Program-made: the position numbers and the translations under genes
Part shown: positions 27,295-35,709 of the stretch, in pieces
How the letters are laid out: the number at the start of each line of letters is the position of its first letter
How positions within the stretch are numbered: position 1 is the stretch's first letter
From: Acidobacteriota bacterium
GTDB taxonomy: Bacteria > Acidobacteriota > Vicinamibacteria > Vicinamibacterales > JAFNAJ01
Direction of reading: 5' to 3'
Length of the DNA: 40,959 nucleotides
NCBI GenBank assembly: GCA_023384575.1
Contig: JAHDVP010000006.1
Span: 68,952 to 109,910 of the forward strand
Notes under the pieces: model-generated
What the model saw: the letters and a program-made list of their open reading frames with translations, nothing else
The model's database searches: none
Told to the model about the DNA's origin: nothing

Positions 27295-29460
27295 TCACCC
27301 CCCGGGCGGGGCGGCGTCGAGGAGACGTTGCAGCCGAGGGTCGTCGCGCAGGGGATCGAGATCGGGATCGTTGCGCGCCCAGTCGAAGGCCAGTGCGCCC
27401 TCGCGGAACGCGGCCTCGAGACACGCGATGGCCTCGTCGTGCCGCCCGAGCGCCACGTACACGCACGCGGCGTTGTAGCGGATGATGGGCTCGTCGGCGT
27501 CGAGCGCGAGCGCCCGTCCGAGCCACGTCGAGGCCCGATCGGCCTCGCCCATCTCGGCGAGCACCGCGGCGCCCATCGTCCACGCGCGGGTGTCGTCGGG
27601 GTGAACGCGGAGGTACTTCTTGGCGGCTTCGATGCACTCGAACGACGCGTTTCGCGCGCGCATCGGATCGCCCAGCTTGCGATAGCACATCCCCAGCAGG
27701 TACCAGGCGTCGTACGCCTCGGGCACGAGAGCGCACGCCTCGCGGAAGTGCTCCGCGGCATCGGCGTGCTGGCCCCGGGCAAACGACACGCGCCCGAAGA
27801 TGTAGTGCGGCTCGTAGAGCCGCGGGTCGAGCTCGATCGCGCGACGCAGGTGCGGCTCGGCCCGATCCAGGTCGCCGGCGACGAGCAGCGCGAGGCCCCG
27901 CGAGGCCTCCGCGTCGGACAGGTCGGGCGCGAGTTCGAGCGCGCGTCGGCTGGCCTCGTCGGCGGCGCGTGCCGACTCGGCCGAGCGACCGAAATAGAGG
28001 TTCAGGAACGAGTGACAGTCGGCGATGCCCGCATAGGCTCGTGCGTACCCCGGGCTGACCTCGATCGCCCGGCCGAAGACCTGGAGCGCCGTCTCGAACG
28101 CCTTGCGGCGATGCTGGTGGAAGAACTGCCGTCCCTGGAGGTAGAGCTCGTACGCCTCGGCCTCGGGGGCGTCCGGACCGCCCGCCGGCCCGCGCTGGCG
28201 CGCCCGCAGCGTGACGGCGAGGGCGCTCGCGATCCGTTCGGCGATCTCGTCCTCGATGGCGAAGATGTCCTCGATGTGCCGGTCGTAGCGCTCGCACCAC
28301 AGCCGGTAGCCGTTGTCGACGCTGACGAGCTGCACCCAGATGCGCACGCGGTCGCCCGCCCTCCGGACGCTGCCCTCGAGGACGGTGGCGACGTTCAGCC
28401 GCCCCCCGATTTCGCGGACGTCGACCGTCTGGTGGCGGTACTGGAACGCCGAGGTGCGCGACGCGACCGCGAGGTCGGGAATGCGGCTGAGCGTTCTCAG
28501 GATCTCTTCCGCGATGCCGTCGCAGAGGAAGCCCTGGTCCTTCGCCTGGCTCAGATCCTCGAACGGCAGCACGGCAATCGACGCCCTCGCGGCGGCCGGT
28601 CGCACGCGCAGCGTCGTCGCCCTCGAGTCGATGGCCGACTGCACGTCGAGCAGGTCGTGCACCATCGACTCGATCCGCTCGTACCGCTCGCCGGGGTCCT
28701 TGGCGAGCGCGCGGTCGATCACCCGGTCGAGCGCCGACGGCACGCCGGAGCGAAGCGACGACGCGGGCGGCGGCTGGTGGTAGAGCACCGCGTCGACCAC
28801 CTCCTGCAGCCCGTCGCCGCGAAACGGGGCGATGCCGGTGAGGGCCTCGTACAGCACGGCACCGAGCGACCAGATGTCGGTGCGCTGATCGACACGCTGC
28901 CGCCCCAGTTGTTCGGGCGACATGTACGCGGGCGTGCCGAGCACGAATCCGTCCGGTGCCGACCGAGCTTCGGCAAGCGAGGTGGCGATGCCGAAGTCGA
29001 GGATCTTGACGGTGTCGCCCCGCGTCAGCAGCAGGTTGGCCGGCTTCACGTCCTGGTGCACGATGAGCTCGTCGTGCGCGGCCCCGAGCCCGCGTCCGGC
29101 CTGGACCGCGACGGCGAGGGCACGGGGGAGCGACAGCGCGCCCTGCGCAACGGTCCGGTCGAGCGTCTCGCCGGCGTAGTAGGCCATGGCGATGAAGACC
29201 TCGCCCGCGTCGGTCTCGTCGACTTCGTAGATCGTGCAGATGTTGGGATGATCGAGCAGGGAGGCCGCGCGCGCCTCGCGAAGCAGCCGGGCCTTCGACG
29301 CGGCGTCGGCTGCGCCGCGCAGGAACTTCAGGGCCACCGCGCGGCCGAGCCGCACGTCGGTGGCGCGGTAGACCTCGCCCATCCCCCCGGCGCCGAGGAG
29401 CTCGCCGATGTCGTAGTGTGAGAGGCGCTGGCCGGCACGGGGGGGCGGGGTGGTGGCCAT
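27295..29460 (-). CDS. Cytosolic Ser/Thr kinase fused to TolB-N-like and TPR domains
   Basis: 721 residues; AAGGAGG stands five bases before the ATG at 29460. The kinase domain (about 15-275) has GAGGMGEVYRATD, VALKFLRG (Lys45), VKILDFGIAT (Asp155) and GTPAYMSPEQL. The catalytic loop is VHQDVKPANLLL: His135-Gln136-Asp137, with Gln in place of the usual Arg, so it is a non-RD kinase that may not need activation-loop phosphorylation. Residues about 300-435 match the TolB N-terminal-like module of CadC-type regulators and adenylate cyclases (FLCDGIAEEILRTLSRIPDL, LEGSVRRAGDRVRIWVQLV). TPR repeats fill 460-715 (HLRRAIELDPRLYEPHYIFG, PDDTRAWTMGAAVLAEMG). No membrane span is seen, unlike the kinase at 22336. 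Divergent from the aminotransferase gene across 100 bases. Confidence 0.92.
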   Translation of the reverse strand: MATTPPPRAGQRLSHYDIGELLGAGGMGEVYRATDVRLGRAVALKFLRGAADAASKARLLREARAASLLDHPNICTIYEVDETDAGEVFIAMAYYAGETLDRTVAQGALSLPRALAVAVQAGRGLGAAHDELIVHQDVKPANLLLTRGDTVKILDFGIATSLAEARSAPDGFVLGTPAYMSPEQLGRQRVDQRTDIWSLGAVLYEALTGIAPFRGDGLQEVVDAVLYHQPPPASSLRSGVPSALDRVIDRALAKDPGERYERIESMVHDLLDVQSAIDSRATTLRVRPAAARASIAVLPFEDLSQAKDQGFLCDGIAEEILRTLSRIPDLAVASRTSAFQYRHQTVDVREIGGRLNVATVLEGSVRRAGDRVRIWVQLVSVDNGYRLWCERYDRHIEDIFAIEDEIAERIASALAVTLRARQRGPAGGPDAPEAEAYELYLQGRQFFHQHRRKAFETALQVFGRAIEVSPGYARAYAGIADCHSFLNLYFGRSAESARAADEASRRALELAPDLSDAEASRGLALLVAGDLDRAEPHLRRAIELDPRLYEPHYIFGRVSFARGQHADAAEHFREACALVPEAYDAWYLLGMCYRKLGDPMRARNASFECIEAAKKYLRVHPDDTRAWTMGAAVLAEMGEADRASTWLGRALALDADEPIIRYNAACVYVALGRHDEAIACLEAAFREGALAFDWARNDPDLDPLRDDPRLQRLLDAAPPGG

Positions 29461-29560: not shown

Positions 29561-30676
29561 ATGGCGTTCCAGAACTTCGAGCTCGAGCACTACCAGTCGC
29601 AGTTCGAGCACCGCGTCGAATTCAACCTGGCCGACAGCTCCGTCGAGGCCGTGACCCTCCGGGAGTGGCTCGACGAGGACGAGATCGCGCGGGTCCTCGA
29701 CACGAAGCTGTCCTATTCCGAAGTCAACGGCACGGTCTCCCTGCGCCGAGCCATCGCCGCGCTCTACCCTGACGCGAGCGCGGAACACGTGCTCGTGACC
29801 GTGGGGTGCGCCGAGGCCAACGCCCTCGTGTGCGCCACGCTGCTCGAGCCGGGCGACGAGGTGGTCGTCATGGCGCCGGGCTACCGGCAGGTGTGGGGAC
29901 TTGCCGTGAATGCCGGCTGCCTCGTCCACGAGGCGCGCCTGCAGCCCGAGGCCGGGTGGCGGTTCGACCTCGATGCCTTCGACGCCCTCGTGGCGCGGCG
30001 GCCCCGGCTCGTGTCGATCACCAATCCCAACAACCCGACCGGCACGATCCTCTCGGACGAGGAACGCACGCACGTCGTCGCCGCGTGCCGAGCGTCTGGT
30101 GCCTGGCTGCACGTGGACGAGGTGTATTCCGGCACCGAGCTCGACGGCGTCGAGACGCCTTCCTTCTGGGGCGGGTACGATCGCCTCGTCTGCACGAACA
30201 GCCTGTCGAAGGCATACGGCCTCGCGGGGCTCAGGGTCGGCTGGGTCGTGGCGTCGCCCGACGTCATCGAGGCCTTGTGGCGACGGCACGAGTACGCGGT
30301 GATCGCGGCGAGCGGGCCGTCGATGGTGCTCGCCGAGGTCGCGCTCTCGCGCGGCAAGCGTGCCGGGTTGCTCGAGAGGCAGCGGCGGCTCTCAATCGAC
30401 GGACGCGAGGTGCTGGCGGCGTGGGTCGCCACGCACGATCGGCTCGTCTCCTGGACGCCGCCACCGGCGACGTCCATGGGCTTCGTGCGGTGCCAGGTCG
30501 ATCTGCCGTCGTCTGAGGTCGCCGAGCGCGTTCGGAGGCACGCCTCGGTCCTCGTGGCGCCGGGATCGGCGCTCGGGCTCGAGCACTACCTGCGCATCAC
30601 GGTGGGGTACCCGGTGACGGAAGTCCGCATGGCGCTCGACCGCATCGGCCGCGTGCTCGACGGACTGGCGGGGTGA
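29561..30676 (+). CDS. PLP-dependent aminotransferase, class I/II
   Basis: 371 residues; AAGGAG lies six bases before the ATG at 29561. Fold-type I features: SYSEVNGTVSLRRAIAALY, VTVGCAEAN, SITNPNNPTGTIL, LHVDEVYSGTELDG (Asp186, Tyr189) and the PLP lysine in TNSLSKAYGLAGLRVGW (Lys217). The C-terminal small domain ends with GLEHYLRITVGYP, where Arg binds the substrate carboxylate. The N-terminus is short, as in the branch that includes capreomycidine synthase-like enzymes and other amino acid aminotransferases or lyases. Substrate is unknown and no biosynthetic cluster surrounds it. Repeat copy B begins ten bases after the stop. Confidence 0.9.
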   Translation: MAFQNFELEHYQSQFEHRVEFNLADSSVEAVTLREWLDEDEIARVLDTKLSYSEVNGTVSLRRAIAALYPDASAEHVLVTVGCAEANALVCATLLEPGDEVVVMAPGYRQVWGLAVNAGCLVHEARLQPEAGWRFDLDAFDALVARRPRLVSITNPNNPTGTILSDEERTHVVAACRASGAWLHVDEVYSGTELDGVETPSFWGGYDRLVCTNSLSKAYGLAGLRVGWVVASPDVIEALWRRHEYAVIAASGPSMVLAEVALSRGKRAGLLERQRRLSIDGREVLAAWVATHDRLVSWTPPPATSMGFVRCQVDLPSSEVAERVRRHASVLVAPGSALGLEHYLRITVGYPVTEVRMALDRIGRVLDGLAG

Positions 30677-30740: not shown

Positions 30741-30894
30741 ACACCCCTCCTTCTGGCACGTTCGCTCTCGTCACCGGACGTGGGGTGAGCGATTCGCGTT
30801 GGAGGCGCGATTCGGAGCGGTGTGGCCGCAAGCCTCCCGTGACGCGCCTGGCCCGCCGCCGGCCCGGCGACGGCGGGTGGCCCTGTACATCTCT

Positions 30895-30921
30895 CCGTCA
30901 TTTTGCATGTTAAAATGACGG
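30895..30921 (+). promoter_or_regulatory. Perfect 10-bp inverted repeat holding the -10 of the ATPase gene
   Basis: CCGTCATTTT (30895-30904), centre GCATGTT, AAAATGACGG (30912-30921). TAAAAT (30911-30916) inside it matches the -10 consensus at five of six positions. The palindrome ends four bases before the ATG at 30926, so it could be an operator for self-repression, and the mRNA would be leaderless. Confidence 0.6.
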
Positions 30922-30925
30922 CGAA

Positions 30926-32083
30926 ATGGCAGTCCACTACGAGCGGATCACGACGGCGCCGGCAGGCAGTTTCTTCCTGTTCGGCGTGCGCGGCGCGGGC
31001 AAGAGCACGTGGGCGCGCGCGACCTTCCCCGACGCGCACCTCATCGACCTGCTGGACGACGTTCTCTATCATGCCCTCCTGTCCACACCCGGCCTGCTCG
31101 CCGACGCGCTGCGCGCGCTGCCGCCGCGGCAGTCCGTCGTCATCGACGAAGTCCAGCGGGTCCCGGCGCTGCTCAACGAGGTGCACCGTGCCATCGAAGC
31201 GTCGAGACGTCGATTCGTGCTGCTCGGGTCGAGCGCCCGACGTCTGAAGACGGCGTCGACCAACCTGCTGGCCGGCCGTGCGGTCGTGCGGACCATGTTC
31301 CCGCTTCAGCCAATCGAGCTGAAGCGCGACTTCGACCTGGAGCGCATCCTCACCTACGGCAGCCTCCCGGTGGTGTGGCAGGCCGCCGATCCGCGCGCCG
31401 CCCTCGAGGCGTACGTGCAGTTGTACGTGCGTGAGGAGATTCGCGCAGAAGCGCTCGCCCGCAACCTTCCGGCCTTCCTGCGCTTCCTGCCCGTGTCGGC
31501 GCTGTTCCACGGGCAGGTGATCAACGTCTCCGGCCTGGCGCGGGACGCCGCCACGTCGAGGACCACCATCGAGGGATACCTGGGCATCCTGGAGGACACG
31601 CTCCTGGCGATGCGCCTGCCTGCGTTCGAAGGGCGACTCCGCGCGCGCGAACGCCGGCATCCGAAGCTGTACTGGGTCGATCCCGGCCTGGTGCGTGCCG
31701 CAAAGCGCCAACTCGGCCCTCTCGCGCAGGAGGAGCGTGGCGCCCTGTTCGAGGGCTGGGTGCTGACGCTGCTCCGCGCACACAACGAGGCTGGCGCCCT
31801 GTTCGAGGAGGTGTCCTACTGGTCGCCGGCCCAGGCGCTCGGGACCGAGGTGGACTTCGTGTTGCGCCGGGGGCGCGAGTACCTGGCCGTCGAGGTCAAG
31901 CTCCAACCTCGATTCGCTCCCGGGCTGCTCGGCGGCCTCCAGGCGATCGCCGGCCTGCCACGCCTGGTCCGCCGCGTGCTCGTCTATCGCGGCCGTCAGC
32001 GCCTTCGCACCGCAGACGGCATCGATGTCGTGCCGCTCGAGGCGTTCGCGGACATGGTCGCCGGTGGCACCCTCTGGCCGTGA
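30926..32083 (+). CDS. AAA-type ATPase with DUF4143 C-terminal domain
   Basis: 385 residues. Walker A is FGVRGAGKST (Lys26), Walker B is SVVIDEVQRVP (about 70-80), followed by RRFVLLGSSARRL, the sensor segment typical of this family, and LQPIELKRDFDLERILTYGSLP. The C-terminal DUF4143 part has a winged-helix-like section (VINVSGLARDAATSRTTIEG), LYWVDPGLVRAAK and a nuclease-like fold trace, GTEVDFVLRRGREYLAVEVK, with the Glu-x-Asp and Glu-x-Lys pattern of restriction-type nucleases. Role is unproven; such genes spread by transfer and are often lone genes, as here. No ribosome site precedes the ATG, consistent with a leaderless mRNA from the palindromic promoter. Confidence 0.92.
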   Translation: MAVHYERITTAPAGSFFLFGVRGAGKSTWARATFPDAHLIDLLDDVLYHALLSTPGLLADALRALPPRQSVVIDEVQRVPALLNEVHRAIEASRRRFVLLGSSARRLKTASTNLLAGRAVVRTMFPLQPIELKRDFDLERILTYGSLPVVWQAADPRAALEAYVQLYVREEIRAEALARNLPAFLRFLPVSALFHGQVINVSGLARDAATSRTTIEGYLGILEDTLLAMRLPAFEGRLRARERRHPKLYWVDPGLVRAAKRQLGPLAQEERGALFEGWVLTLLRAHNEAGALFEEVSYWSPAQALGTEVDFVLRRGREYLAVEVKLQPRFAPGLLGGLQAIAGLPRLVRRVLVYRGRQRLRTADGIDVVPLEAFADMVAGGTLWP

Positions 32084-32262: not shown

Positions 32263-32754
32263 CTAGAAGCGTTCCCACGCGAGCACGTCGGTGAGCGGGC
32301 GCTTCTCCGGCTCCGGCGCTTCCGCCGGATGTCCCACGGCGACGAGCGAGAGGAGCGTGTGGCCGTCCGGCGCGCCGAGCAGGCGCGCGATCGGTTCGGC
32401 GTAGGCGAGCGGGTGCGCCGCAACCCAGCAGGCGCCGAGCGCGTGGGCGTGCGCGGCCGTCAGCAGGTTCATCGTCGCGGCACAACCGTCTTCCACCCAG
32501 TAGTCGCCCGCCTCGACGAAAACGGCGATGCAGGCGGCGGCCTTCGCGATGAACGCCGCGTGGCCGGTCAACTCGGCGATCCGGGCGCGCGTGGCTGCGT
32601 CCTCCACGACGACGAAGCGCCAGGGCTGACGGTTCATCGCCGTGGGCGCGAGGCGCGCGCAGTCGATGAGGTCCTCGATGACGGGGCGGGGCACGACGCC
32701 GGGGGCGTAGGTTCGAATGCTGCGGCGGGTCTTGAGGCAGGTGATCGCGTCCAT
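32263..32754 (-). CDS. Nitroreductase family protein
   Basis: 163 residues from the ATG at 32754 (MDAITCLKTRRSIRTY), the normal family start; an ATG at 32763 would add three residues. FMN-binding motifs are RRSIR (10-14), APTAMNRQPWRFVVVED, and near the C-terminus LGAPDGHTLLSLVAVGHPAE. Such enzymes use NAD(P)H to reduce nitro groups, quinones or enals in the cytosol; physiological substrate unknown. TACGAT on the minus strand (32768-32763) ends eight bases before this start, hinting at a leaderless mRNA. The gene ends at 32263, and a 179-base gap to the convergent ATPase gene (32084-32262) shows no gene or terminator. Confidence 0.88.
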   Translation of the reverse strand: MDAITCLKTRRSIRTYAPGVVPRPVIEDLIDCARLAPTAMNRQPWRFVVVEDAATRARIAELTGHAAFIAKAAACIAVFVEAGDYWVEDGCAATMNLLTAAHAHALGACWVAAHPLAYAEPIARLLGAPDGHTLLSLVAVGHPAEAPEPEKRPLTDVLAWERF

Positions 32755-32806
32755 GCCGGGCATCGTACCAGACGACCCGCGGAAGTCGATGGGGAAGACC
32801 GCGAAG

Positions 32807-33797: not shown

Positions 33798-34382
33798 TCA
33801 GGTGGCGTCACGCTCCGACCCGCCCGCCATCTTCCGGTGCTCGTAGATCAGCCAGAGCCCGACACCGACGAGACCGAGCGGCCACCATTCACGCAGCCAC
33901 TCGAGCGGCAGGTCGAACTTCGTGTGGGCGAAGAGCACGAGGCCGGCCACCACGAGGCCGATACCGCCGCCGAGCGATCCGCGCCATCCCGGGGCCTTCG
34001 TGTCCTCGGGCAGGTCCATCGGCCTGAGCCCGGCCAGCGCCTGGTTGTAGAGGCTGGCGCGCCGTCCGGCGTCGACGACGTTGAAGAGCCAGAAGAACAC
34101 ACCGAAAATGGCGGCGACCGGCTCGAGGCCGCCCCGCCACACGCCGAGGGCGCCCAGCGCGAAGATCCCGCAGACGACGAGGATGTTCGTGAAACCCTGC
34201 TGGTAGTAGCCGACGTAGACCTGCCCGACGCCGGGCATGGCCGACAGGACCGAGGCGAGCATCACCGACTTGCGGCGCGGGTCGTTCACGTAGACGTCCT
34301 GCCGCGAGGGGCGAGCGAAGGCGGAGTACGCGCGTTCCGCGCTGGCGGGCTGTTCGATGGGCGATTCAAGGGTCGTGGTCAT
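33798..34382 (-). CDS. TM2/LiaF-like membrane protein in sigma-factor operon
   Basis: 194 residues. A polar N-terminus (1-38) precedes a TM2-like part: RRKSVMLASVLSAMPGVGQVYVGYYQQGF, given here in two pieces as positions about 36-64, with the Pro-Gly-x-Gly-Gln turn, followed by spans at about 66-82 and 88-103. After a loop with RRASLYNQAL, two further spans (about 133-150 and 162-178) have the WWPLGLVGVGLWLI pattern of LiaF-type membrane domains. The ATG at 34382 overlaps the anti-sigma stop by four bases, so it is translationally coupled. It may sense or relay envelope state to the anti-sigma protein; this is inference from position and topology. Confidence 0.8.
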   Translation of the reverse strand: MTTTLESPIEQPASAERAYSAFARPSRQDVYVNDPRRKSVMLASVLSAMPGVGQVYVGYYQQGFTNILVVCGIFALGALGVWRGGLEPVAAIFGVFFWLFNVVDAGRRASLYNQALAGLRPMDLPEDTKAPGWRGSLGGGIGLVVAGLVLFAHTKFDLPLEWLREWWPLGLVGVGLWLIYEHRKMAGGSERDAT

Positions 34383-35140
34383 GGGGTCGTCTCCGTTCGA
34401 TCCCTGGAACGCACGGGCGCATCCGCGGGTTCGGTGTGCGCCGGGCGGAACGTGGCGACGAGCTCGTCGAGCCAGTCGAGCGCACGCCGGCCCCAGTGGC
34501 TGGCCGCTTCGGTGAGCGTCGTCCAGGCGCGCGTCCACGGCGCGGTCTCCGGGGCTCGGCGGGTGCCGTCCCACTCACGCGCTCGCGCGTCGAGCCAGTC
34601 GCGTACCGTATCGAGGCGGGGCCAGCCGCGACCGTCGGCTCGTGCGAGCGCCGCGGGCGCCTCGGGCAGCCGCAGCTCGAAGGCCGGCAGCGTCCAGCGT
34701 TCGAGCCGGCCCGCCGTTCTGTCCCACGCGCGCACGGGGTCGCCGACGAGCAGCACGAACAAGAGCGTCAGCCCGTAGGCCGCCTCCCACGCGAACCGCG
34801 GCCGCCCGGACACCGTCTGCCAGCGCTCCAGCCACCCGTCGTACCACCGGAGCTCGCGCGCCCGCTGGGATGTCGCCGCCAGCACCCGCCCGGCGAAGCC
34901 GGGGCCCGGATCACCCTCCGCCAGTGCCGGCAGCTTCGCACGGAGGGAGGCCAGCATGTCGGCCACCGCGCGGCAGCCGGGGCAGTGCCGCAGGTGCTCG
35001 TCGAGCAGGGCCCGACCGGTCGGGTCGGGCGGATCGTCGATGTGCCCGGCCAGCCGGAGCCGGGCGCCCGCGCAGACCTCTCCCGAGGTGCGCGCCAGCA
35101 CGTCCGACACGAAGCGGTCGTCGGGTGCCCCGGGTGTCAT
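34379..35140 (-). CDS. Anti-sigma factor with zinc-finger (ZAS) motif
   Basis: 253 residues from the ATG at 35140, which overlaps the sigma-factor stop by four bases. The zinc anti-sigma motif H-x3-C-x2-C is His49, Cys53, Cys56 in DEHLRHCPGC. One membrane span (about 116-137, AWEAAYGLTLLFVLLVGDPV) separates the cytosolic domain from a Trp- and Arg-rich outer part (140-253) with no known fold. The expected role is to hold the ECF sigma factor inactive until an envelope signal arrives. The zinc-thiol site could add redox sensitivity. Confidence 0.87.
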   Translation of the reverse strand: MTPGAPDDRFVSDVLARTSGEVCAGARLRLAGHIDDPPDPTGRALLDEHLRHCPGCRAVADMLASLRAKLPALAEGDPGPGFAGRVLAATSQRARELRWYDGWLERWQTVSGRPRFAWEAAYGLTLLFVLLVGDPVRAWDRTAGRLERWTLPAFELRLPEAPAALARADGRGWPRLDTVRDWLDARAREWDGTRRAPETAPWTRAWTTLTEAASHWGRRALDWLDELVATFRPAHTEPADAPVRSRDRTETTP

Positions 35141-35709
35141 GGCCGGCCTCGTTCGCGGCCGAGCGCGAGGACTTCCTCGGCCAGTTCGACCCGTGCGCGG
35201 CTCGCGCGCGATTTCACCGTGCCGACCGGCACGCCGAGCAGTGCGGCGACCTCGCGAACGGACAACTCCTGCACGTCGCGCAGCATCACGATCTCGCGGC
35301 TGAGCGACGAGAGGCGGGCCAGAGCTGTACGCAGCAGTCGCCGTTCCCTGCCGCGTTCGAGGACGGCCGTCGGGCCCGGTGCAGGGTCGGTGGCAGCCAT
35401 CCCCTCGTCCACGGCGGCCGCTGCCAGCGGCTGACGGACCCGGCGCCGGCGCTGGTCGTCGATGGCGCGGTTCTTGGTGACCTGGCACAGCCACGCCACG
35501 AAGCCCGCCGCCTCCGGCCATCGTCCGCGGATCTCGTACAGGCGGACGAAGACGTCCTGCGCCAGGTCACGCGCTTCATCTCGGTCGACGACGTACCCGC
35601 TGGCGATGGCGTACACCCGGCCCTGGAACCTCCGGACAAACGCCTCCCACGCCAGGTCGTCGCCGTCCTGGCATCGGGCGAGCAGGGTGTCGAGGTCGAG
35701 TGTCTCCAC
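35137..35709 (-). CDS. ECF RNA polymerase sigma factor (sigma-70 family, RpoE-like)
   Basis: 190 residues from the GTG at 35709. Region 2 spans about 10-90 (FVRRFQGRVYAIASGYVV, DEARDLAQDVFVRLYE, AWLCQVTKNRAIDDQRRRR), and region 4 about 130-180 (RLSSLSREIVMLRDVQ, SVREVAALLGVPVGTVKSRA), a clear helix-turn-helix. The linker is Ala- and Pro-rich. It heads a three-gene operon with four-base ATGA overlaps to the anti-sigma and then the membrane protein gene, the standard layout of a sigma/anti-sigma switch. The promoter it recognises is not evident here; a short AGGGC/GCCCT hairpin stands upstream (about 35733-35746). Confidence 0.93.
   Translation of the reverse strand: METLDLDTLLARCQDGDDLAWEAFVRRFQGRVYAIASGYVVDRDEARDLAQDVFVRLYEIRGRWPEAAGFVAWLCQVTKNRAIDDQRRRRVRQPLAAAAVDEGMAATDPAPGPTAVLERGRERRLLRTALARLSSLSREIVMLRDVQELSVREVAALLGVPVGTVKSRASRARVELAEEVLALGRERGRP

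Follow-up and report, generated by a model that had tools for sequence, protein, structure and literature searches.

Antitoxins and restriction controller proteins regulate themselves through a palindrome that lies over their own promoter. A second group of relevance is the STAND-type ATPases, the nearest solved relatives of the protein studied here, whose winged helix is, to our knowledge, not known to read DNA. Antitoxins have been reviewed (PMC4803016), and transcription factor control of defence genes has been described for the WYL-domain regulators of defence islands, of the BrxR/CapW type (PMC9122601). PDC-S01, an ATPase fused to a PD-(D/E)XK nuclease, has been ranked fourth in frequency among prokaryotic defence families and is a defence candidate without experimental validation (PMC12988326). 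In Thermus thermophilus, expression of the DUF4143 ATPase gene TT_P0211 was up 6.6-fold with a plasmid in Argonaute-containing cells (PMC4406477), a rise that shows only that the mRNA of a family member can change with foreign DNA. Our literature search, mostly of papers outside subscription journals, found no published operator or autoregulation for DUF4143, AAA_14 or PDC-S01.

Here we analyse a gene of this family in a 40,959-nt stretch of an Acidobacteriota genome (the window), together with its homologues, and describe a palindrome at the gene start that coevolves with two residues of the encoded protein.

Results

A palindrome at the start of a DUF4143 ATPase gene

The features of the locus, with positions in the window, are as follows.

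30895..30921, no strand: putative operator palindrome, CCGTCATTTT-GCATGTT-AAAATGACGG, dyad at 30908; the strongest inverted repeat of the window
30896..30900, minus strand: left half-site CGTCA (TGACG on the minus strand), dyad -12 to -8; register conserved in homologues
30916..30920, plus strand: right half-site TGACG, dyad +8 to +12; covaries with residues 212 and 213 of the protein
30908..30916, plus strand: extended -10 promoter element TG-T-TAAAAT, overlapping the right half-site; called from the sequence and the TANNNT bias in relatives
30926..32083, plus strand: AAA_14/DUF4143 ATPase gene (PADLOC PDC-S01), 385 aa, predicted leaderless start; called from profile matches
30983..31006, plus strand: Walker A motif GVRGAGKS
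31175-31177 and 31622-31624 (approximate): codons of residues 84 and 233, the covarying model columns 79 and 228
31466..31675, plus strand: winged helix-turn-helix domain, model residues 176-245; AlphaFold2 model
31559..31597, plus strand: predicted recognition helix, model residues 207-219 (protein residues 212-224); AlphaFold2 model and covariation
31559-31561 and 31562-31564, plus strand: codons of R212 and T213, the first of the recognition helix; both covary with the operator
31847..31900, plus strand: PD-(D/E)XK-like nuclease motif E-V-D ... E-V-K; conserved columns

The perfect 10-bp arms of the palindrome (CCGTCATTTT, 30895-30904, and AAAATGACGG, 30912-30921) become arms of 17 nt with 88% complementarity once imperfect extension is allowed. 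The score of the palindrome, 25.9 bits, lies above the highest inverted-repeat score in each of six shuffles of the window (17.6-21.2 bits). With the central T30908 numbered as 0, the perfect arms extend from -13 to -4 and from +4 to +13, and the cores of the two half-sites stand 21 bp apart, which is two turns and places them on one face of the DNA. The extended -10 box lies at dyad 0 to +8 (TG at 30908-9, TAAAAT at 30911-30916), in the centre and right arm of the palindrome, so that a palindromic site overlaps the gene's own promoter, as expected of an autorepressor. The start codon, ATG 30926, follows at dyad +18, with CGAA between it and the right arm and with no ribosome site ahead of it. 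Because an in-frame TAA that ends within the palindrome closes the reading frame, and no other start codon precedes the Walker A motif, ATG 30926 is certain as the start, and little or no leader is expected in the transcript. The sequence-only reading had described this perfect palindrome with its -10 box, its arms around GCATGTT and an ATG four bases further on without a ribosome site, and it proved exact in each of these points.

The encoded protein matches Pfam DUF4143 (PF13635; 101.5 bits against a gathering cut-off of 28.1) and AAA_14 (PF13173; 60.6 bits against 27), as well as five PADLOC PDC-S01 models with E values of 1e-8 to 1e-50 (among them 1.7e-50, 2.9e-33, 1.6e-23 and 1.8e-20). 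A sequence search found no solved structure. In the confident AlphaFold2 model (mean pLDDT 89, pTM 0.89), an AAA+ domain is followed by a winged helix and, at the C-terminus, by a nuclease-like domain. The closest solved folds to the ATPase and winged helix are the archaeal ATPases 2qen (Z 14.7, rmsd 3.0, 233 residues) and 2fna (Z 14.2, rmsd 3.3, 236 residues), followed by plant NLRs and CED-4, and over about 235 residues the modelled ATPase and winged helix have a STAND-type fold. Foldseek added RuvB and Orc1/Cdc6 (2v1u, 2qby, 9dx5) and the nuclease-bearing proteins VC1899 and Can2. The fold comparison covered mostly residues 1-259; the nuclease assignment draws on the VC1899 and Can2 matches, the literature and the E-x-D and E-x-K motifs, whose columns 303, 305, 318 and 320 show little or no variation across diverse homologues.

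Upstream, an aminotransferase gene (29561-30676) ends 250 bp before the start codon, and downstream, on the other strand, lie genes for a nitroreductase (32263-32763) and an alpha/beta hydrolase. Among the few neighbours checked, no defence island was found. A type II toxin-antitoxin operon was considered and rejected: the gene is single, without a partner, and the genes downstream are on the opposite strand. Farther out, the window holds a Ser/Thr protein kinase with TPR repeats near the aminotransferase gene (27295-29460, minus strand), an ordinary neighbour, and an ECF-type sigma factor gene (35137-35709, minus strand) followed on the same strand by a gene for a weakly LiaI/LiaF-like membrane protein (33798-34574).

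Palindromes precede about half of the homologous genes

In a pooled set of 226 non-archaeal homologues, 47.8% carried a dyad of at least 14 bits near the gene start, compared with 7.7% of 311 starts of other genes that have intergenic DNA upstream (odds ratio 10.9) and with 4.7% of block-shuffled upstream regions. Similar differences were obtained in smaller sets. When the 140 nt leading up to the Walker A motif were searched in 87 homologues from 60 related genomes, 49% showed inverted repeats scoring 14 bits or more (5% of control windows); so did 50% of 78 homologues from named records of many phyla (6% of controls) and 44% of 32 members that belong mostly to more distant subfamilies, including 28 found in other phyla (8% of controls). 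At the 3′ ends of the homologous genes the proportion was 13.6%. Palindromes ending 0-15 nt ahead of the start codon, where the right arm usually ends, were 6-10 times commoner at DUF4143 ATPase genes than at other genes or in control DNA, and relative to the dyad the start codon mostly lay at +13 to +18. By this score, no clear palindrome was present in about half of the homologues; some of these have wide or tandem repeats and others nothing. The diverse family alignment offered no stretch conserved enough for scanning the whole collection, and a closer alignment was used instead. A scan of viral contigs with a phage-borne family member gave no match.

In the clade of the window gene, bases between about -24 and +20 relative to the dyad were highly conserved, and conservation fell to background level farther upstream. 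These borders are sharp, and the portable unit would therefore be the operator plus the gene. This agrees with the suggestion of the sequence-only reading that a portable self-control element travels with the gene, a suggestion that had called for a survey of upstream regions across DUF4143 ATPase genes and that the enrichment reported above, over many phyla, bears out. The same reading had described such palindromes as built around a TGTTAA(A/T)AT core. A -10 box of this kind is present in some members, but the core is not general, and the arms vary by subfamily.

Among 48 relatives aligned by their dyad, TANNNT at +3 to +8 was found in 48% of right arms and 15% of left arms, and matches to TATAAT were likewise higher in the right arm than in the left (p 4e-4). 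Because the right arm carries this excess, the site is, judged by its bases, a symmetric one bent toward the promoter on its gene-facing side.

Operators of other spacing and length were also observed. One clade (L044, L215, L220, L222, L227 and L228) has TGACG half-sites and the Arg-Thr pair with an even spacing of 20 bp rather than 21, and has TCATGA or a similar sequence at the centre. A distant subfamily (L027, L029, L033, L060, L064, L079 and L091) has long operators, ACCATGAAAATCGAA...TTCGATTTTCATGGT, with perfect arms of up to 19 bp.

The putative operator coevolves with the first residues of the predicted recognition helix

Operators were called by symmetry and position only, without a motif, and for 95 non-redundant homologues each protein column was compared with operator similarity at +8 to +12, with correction for overall identity outside the winged helix. 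Of 347 protein columns, model columns 207 and 208, which correspond to R212 and T213, ranked first and second (r 0.41 and 0.34, against a tree-simulated null with sd 0.07). These values lie about 5.8 and 4.7 standard deviations beyond the tree simulations, with p at the floor of 400 simulations, although the homologues are related and the p-values are therefore optimistic even with the tree control. Columns 79, in the ATPase domain, and 228, near the wing, lie outside the recognition helix and covaried with the operator as well.

Pairs of homologues with 35-40% protein identity had 73% of core bases in common if residues 212 and 213 matched and 28% if they did not. More broadly, matching residues went with core bases that were 73-88% identical, even where the proteins were no more than 40% identical, whereas differing residues went with 25-31%, near chance level, at up to 45% identity. 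In 68 homologues of common register, the top three residue-base pairs were R212 with +9, R212 with +8 and T213 with +11. Of 56 genes encoding R212, 48 had G at +9 in each of the two arms, compared with 1 of 12 genes without it (p 5e-7). When R212 was present, T213 was associated with AC or CC at +10/+11, P213 with CT or AT, and K213 with GA, GG or GC; lysine or arginine opposite guanines is chemically expected. Residue 213 changes 17 times on the tree. K213 has at least two origins, both with G at +10 (in a TGGA clade of its own and in L149 inside the Thr clade), and P213 has at least three, for the most part with T at +11 (L154, L119/L112 and the L018 group). By this coevolution, operator specificity appears to be set by the protein's own recognition helix. 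The sequence-only reading had thought DNA binding by the protein itself possible on account of its ExD/ExK nuclease-like end; the coevolution supports binding by the protein, but the predicted reader is the winged helix and not the nuclease end.

The putative operator in its own genome and among paralogues

When up to three mismatches were allowed, the operator occurred at only two sites in the 5.9-Mb genome, and both lie at the start of genes of the DUF4143 family. A MITE- or REP-type repeat was rejected on the same count, two copies in 5.9 Mb, both at family genes. The second site (L042; G000:C2:298854-298878) has an operator of the same class, CGTCATAAATCCGGTAAAAATGACG, and its gene, which contains a run of N in the assembly, encodes the Arg-Thr recognition helix. 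The two genes, having a common operator, may cross-regulate. The outer bases alone, CGTCAT-N13-ATGACG, were unspecific: most genome matches had a GC-rich centre and were chance-like, and specificity requires the A/T-rich inner arms as well.

Further paralogues, both here and in related genomes, carry different operators. L004 (on C34), a more distantly related DUF4143 gene of the genome that holds the window, starts behind two tandem palindromes of another kind, TTACTCA-N6-TGAGTAA and TACTCA-N6-TGAGTA. Three other genomes (G436, G434 and G424) have more than 20 DUF4143 genes each, 27 in one of them, which raises the question of how their operators are insulated. A hairpin-like sequence, CGTCATTCTGC-NNN-GCA(G/A)AATGACG, at G053:C86:228254 and G056:C44:191172 has the outer operator arms in common but resembles another repeat; in G056 a close relative of the window protein was not seen.

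A model of self-binding and the alternatives to it

Taking architecture, enrichment, register and coevolution together, we regard it as quite probable that the palindrome serves the gene as a self-operator, which the winged helix of the encoded protein reads for steric self-repression. On its parts, the coevolution makes it very probable that the protein binds this operator directly, and the overlap with the -10 box makes repression probable. The ATPase would bind the palindrome through its winged helix, which lies between ATPase and nuclease domains, either as a dimer or as two symmetric subunits of an oligomer, and in each half-site Arg212 would read the G at dyad +9 and residue 213 the bases at +10/+11. 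Because the half-sites, on one face, cover the -10 box and the leaderless start, steric self-repression is the simplest consequence: bound protein would shut out RNA polymerase. A signal, perhaps the nucleotide state or invading DNA, would release the protein from the operator. Operator and gene would transfer between genomes as one unit, their specificity changing jointly.

The coevolution is compatible with any self-binding, including one in which the protein helps RNA polymerase, like MerR-type or controller proteins, and forms a positive loop. A weak -35 would suit such a role, and at 30888-30893, 17 bp upstream of TAAAAT, the sequence is CATCTC, with no good hexamer visible. However, an extended -10 (TGn) can offset a weak -35. 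Known activators bind upstream of the -10 box or within the -35/-10 spacer, and here the right half-site overlaps the last -10 bases and the region leading to the start codon, where bound protein should block polymerase; we consider activation improbable. The PD-(D/E)XK-like end of the protein and the spread of the gene over many phyla would also fit a palindrome that serves not as an operator but as a recognition or cutting site of the nuclease or as an insertion site of a mobile element. Yet the palindrome is unbroken and stands 5′ of the gene, over its promoter, with no 3′ partner repeat (both half-sites were found within 90 nt at 46% of 5′ ends and 1% of 3′ ends), its own genome has no empty operator sites, and the -10 box is retained asymmetrically in the right arm, all of which makes a role of this kind decidedly unlikely.

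Palindromic operators at -10 boxes are common among small repressors, and a host regulator could in principle read this one in place of the protein itself. Against this, the site covaries across phyla with residues of the protein's own recognition helix, it is private to the DUF4143 gene type in its own genome, and different paralogues in one genome have different operators; we find a host regulator very hard to credit. Any single 27-bp site could be random, but a palindrome that scores above every window shuffle and has counterparts at the corresponding position in homologues 6-10 times as often as in controls is scarcely conceivable as chance, and the same low probability applies to a functionless RNA hairpin or terminator, since the palindrome contains the -10 box and would be mostly outside the transcript.

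Discussion

A self-operator with a two-residue code is a first concrete handle on PDC-S01, a candidate family without known activity or control, for the code names the predicted target DNA, the binding domain and the residues. It also suggests that the winged helix of a STAND-like ATPase can serve as a sequence reader, and its many matched protein-operator pairs from different phyla form a natural series for the study of regulation at large. More speculatively, and with more chance of being wrong than right, PDC-S01 genes might be one-gene switches, in which a STAND-like nuclease sits as repressor on its own promoter until invading DNA activates it or draws it off, whereupon the gene would be transcribed and the protein would become the effector. 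If this were true, the 212/213 code would allow operators to be predicted from the proteins for much of a family that has roughly 40,000 known members, and it would keep the paralogues within one genome insulated from each other.

The window gene matches five models of PDC-S01, and to that family we add a putative operator, described here for this gene and its relatives. The best fold matches to the protein are the STAND-type or archaeal AAA+ ATPases SSO1545 and PAB2304, with NLR and CED-4 more remote; in contrast to these, it has a winged helix that seems to recognise a particular DNA site, with a nuclease domain behind it. Orc1/Cdc6 and RuvB resemble it in placing an AAA+ domain and a winged helix on DNA, but they act at origins or junctions rather than over the -10 box of their own promoter, and they have no nuclease end. 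In autoregulated antitoxins and restriction controller proteins, a protein likewise binds a palindrome over its own promoter; there, however, the regulator is a separate small gene beside the effector, whereas here regulator and effector would be one polypeptide. The WYL-domain regulators, too, are encoded by a separate gene, and their fold differs from that of the window protein.
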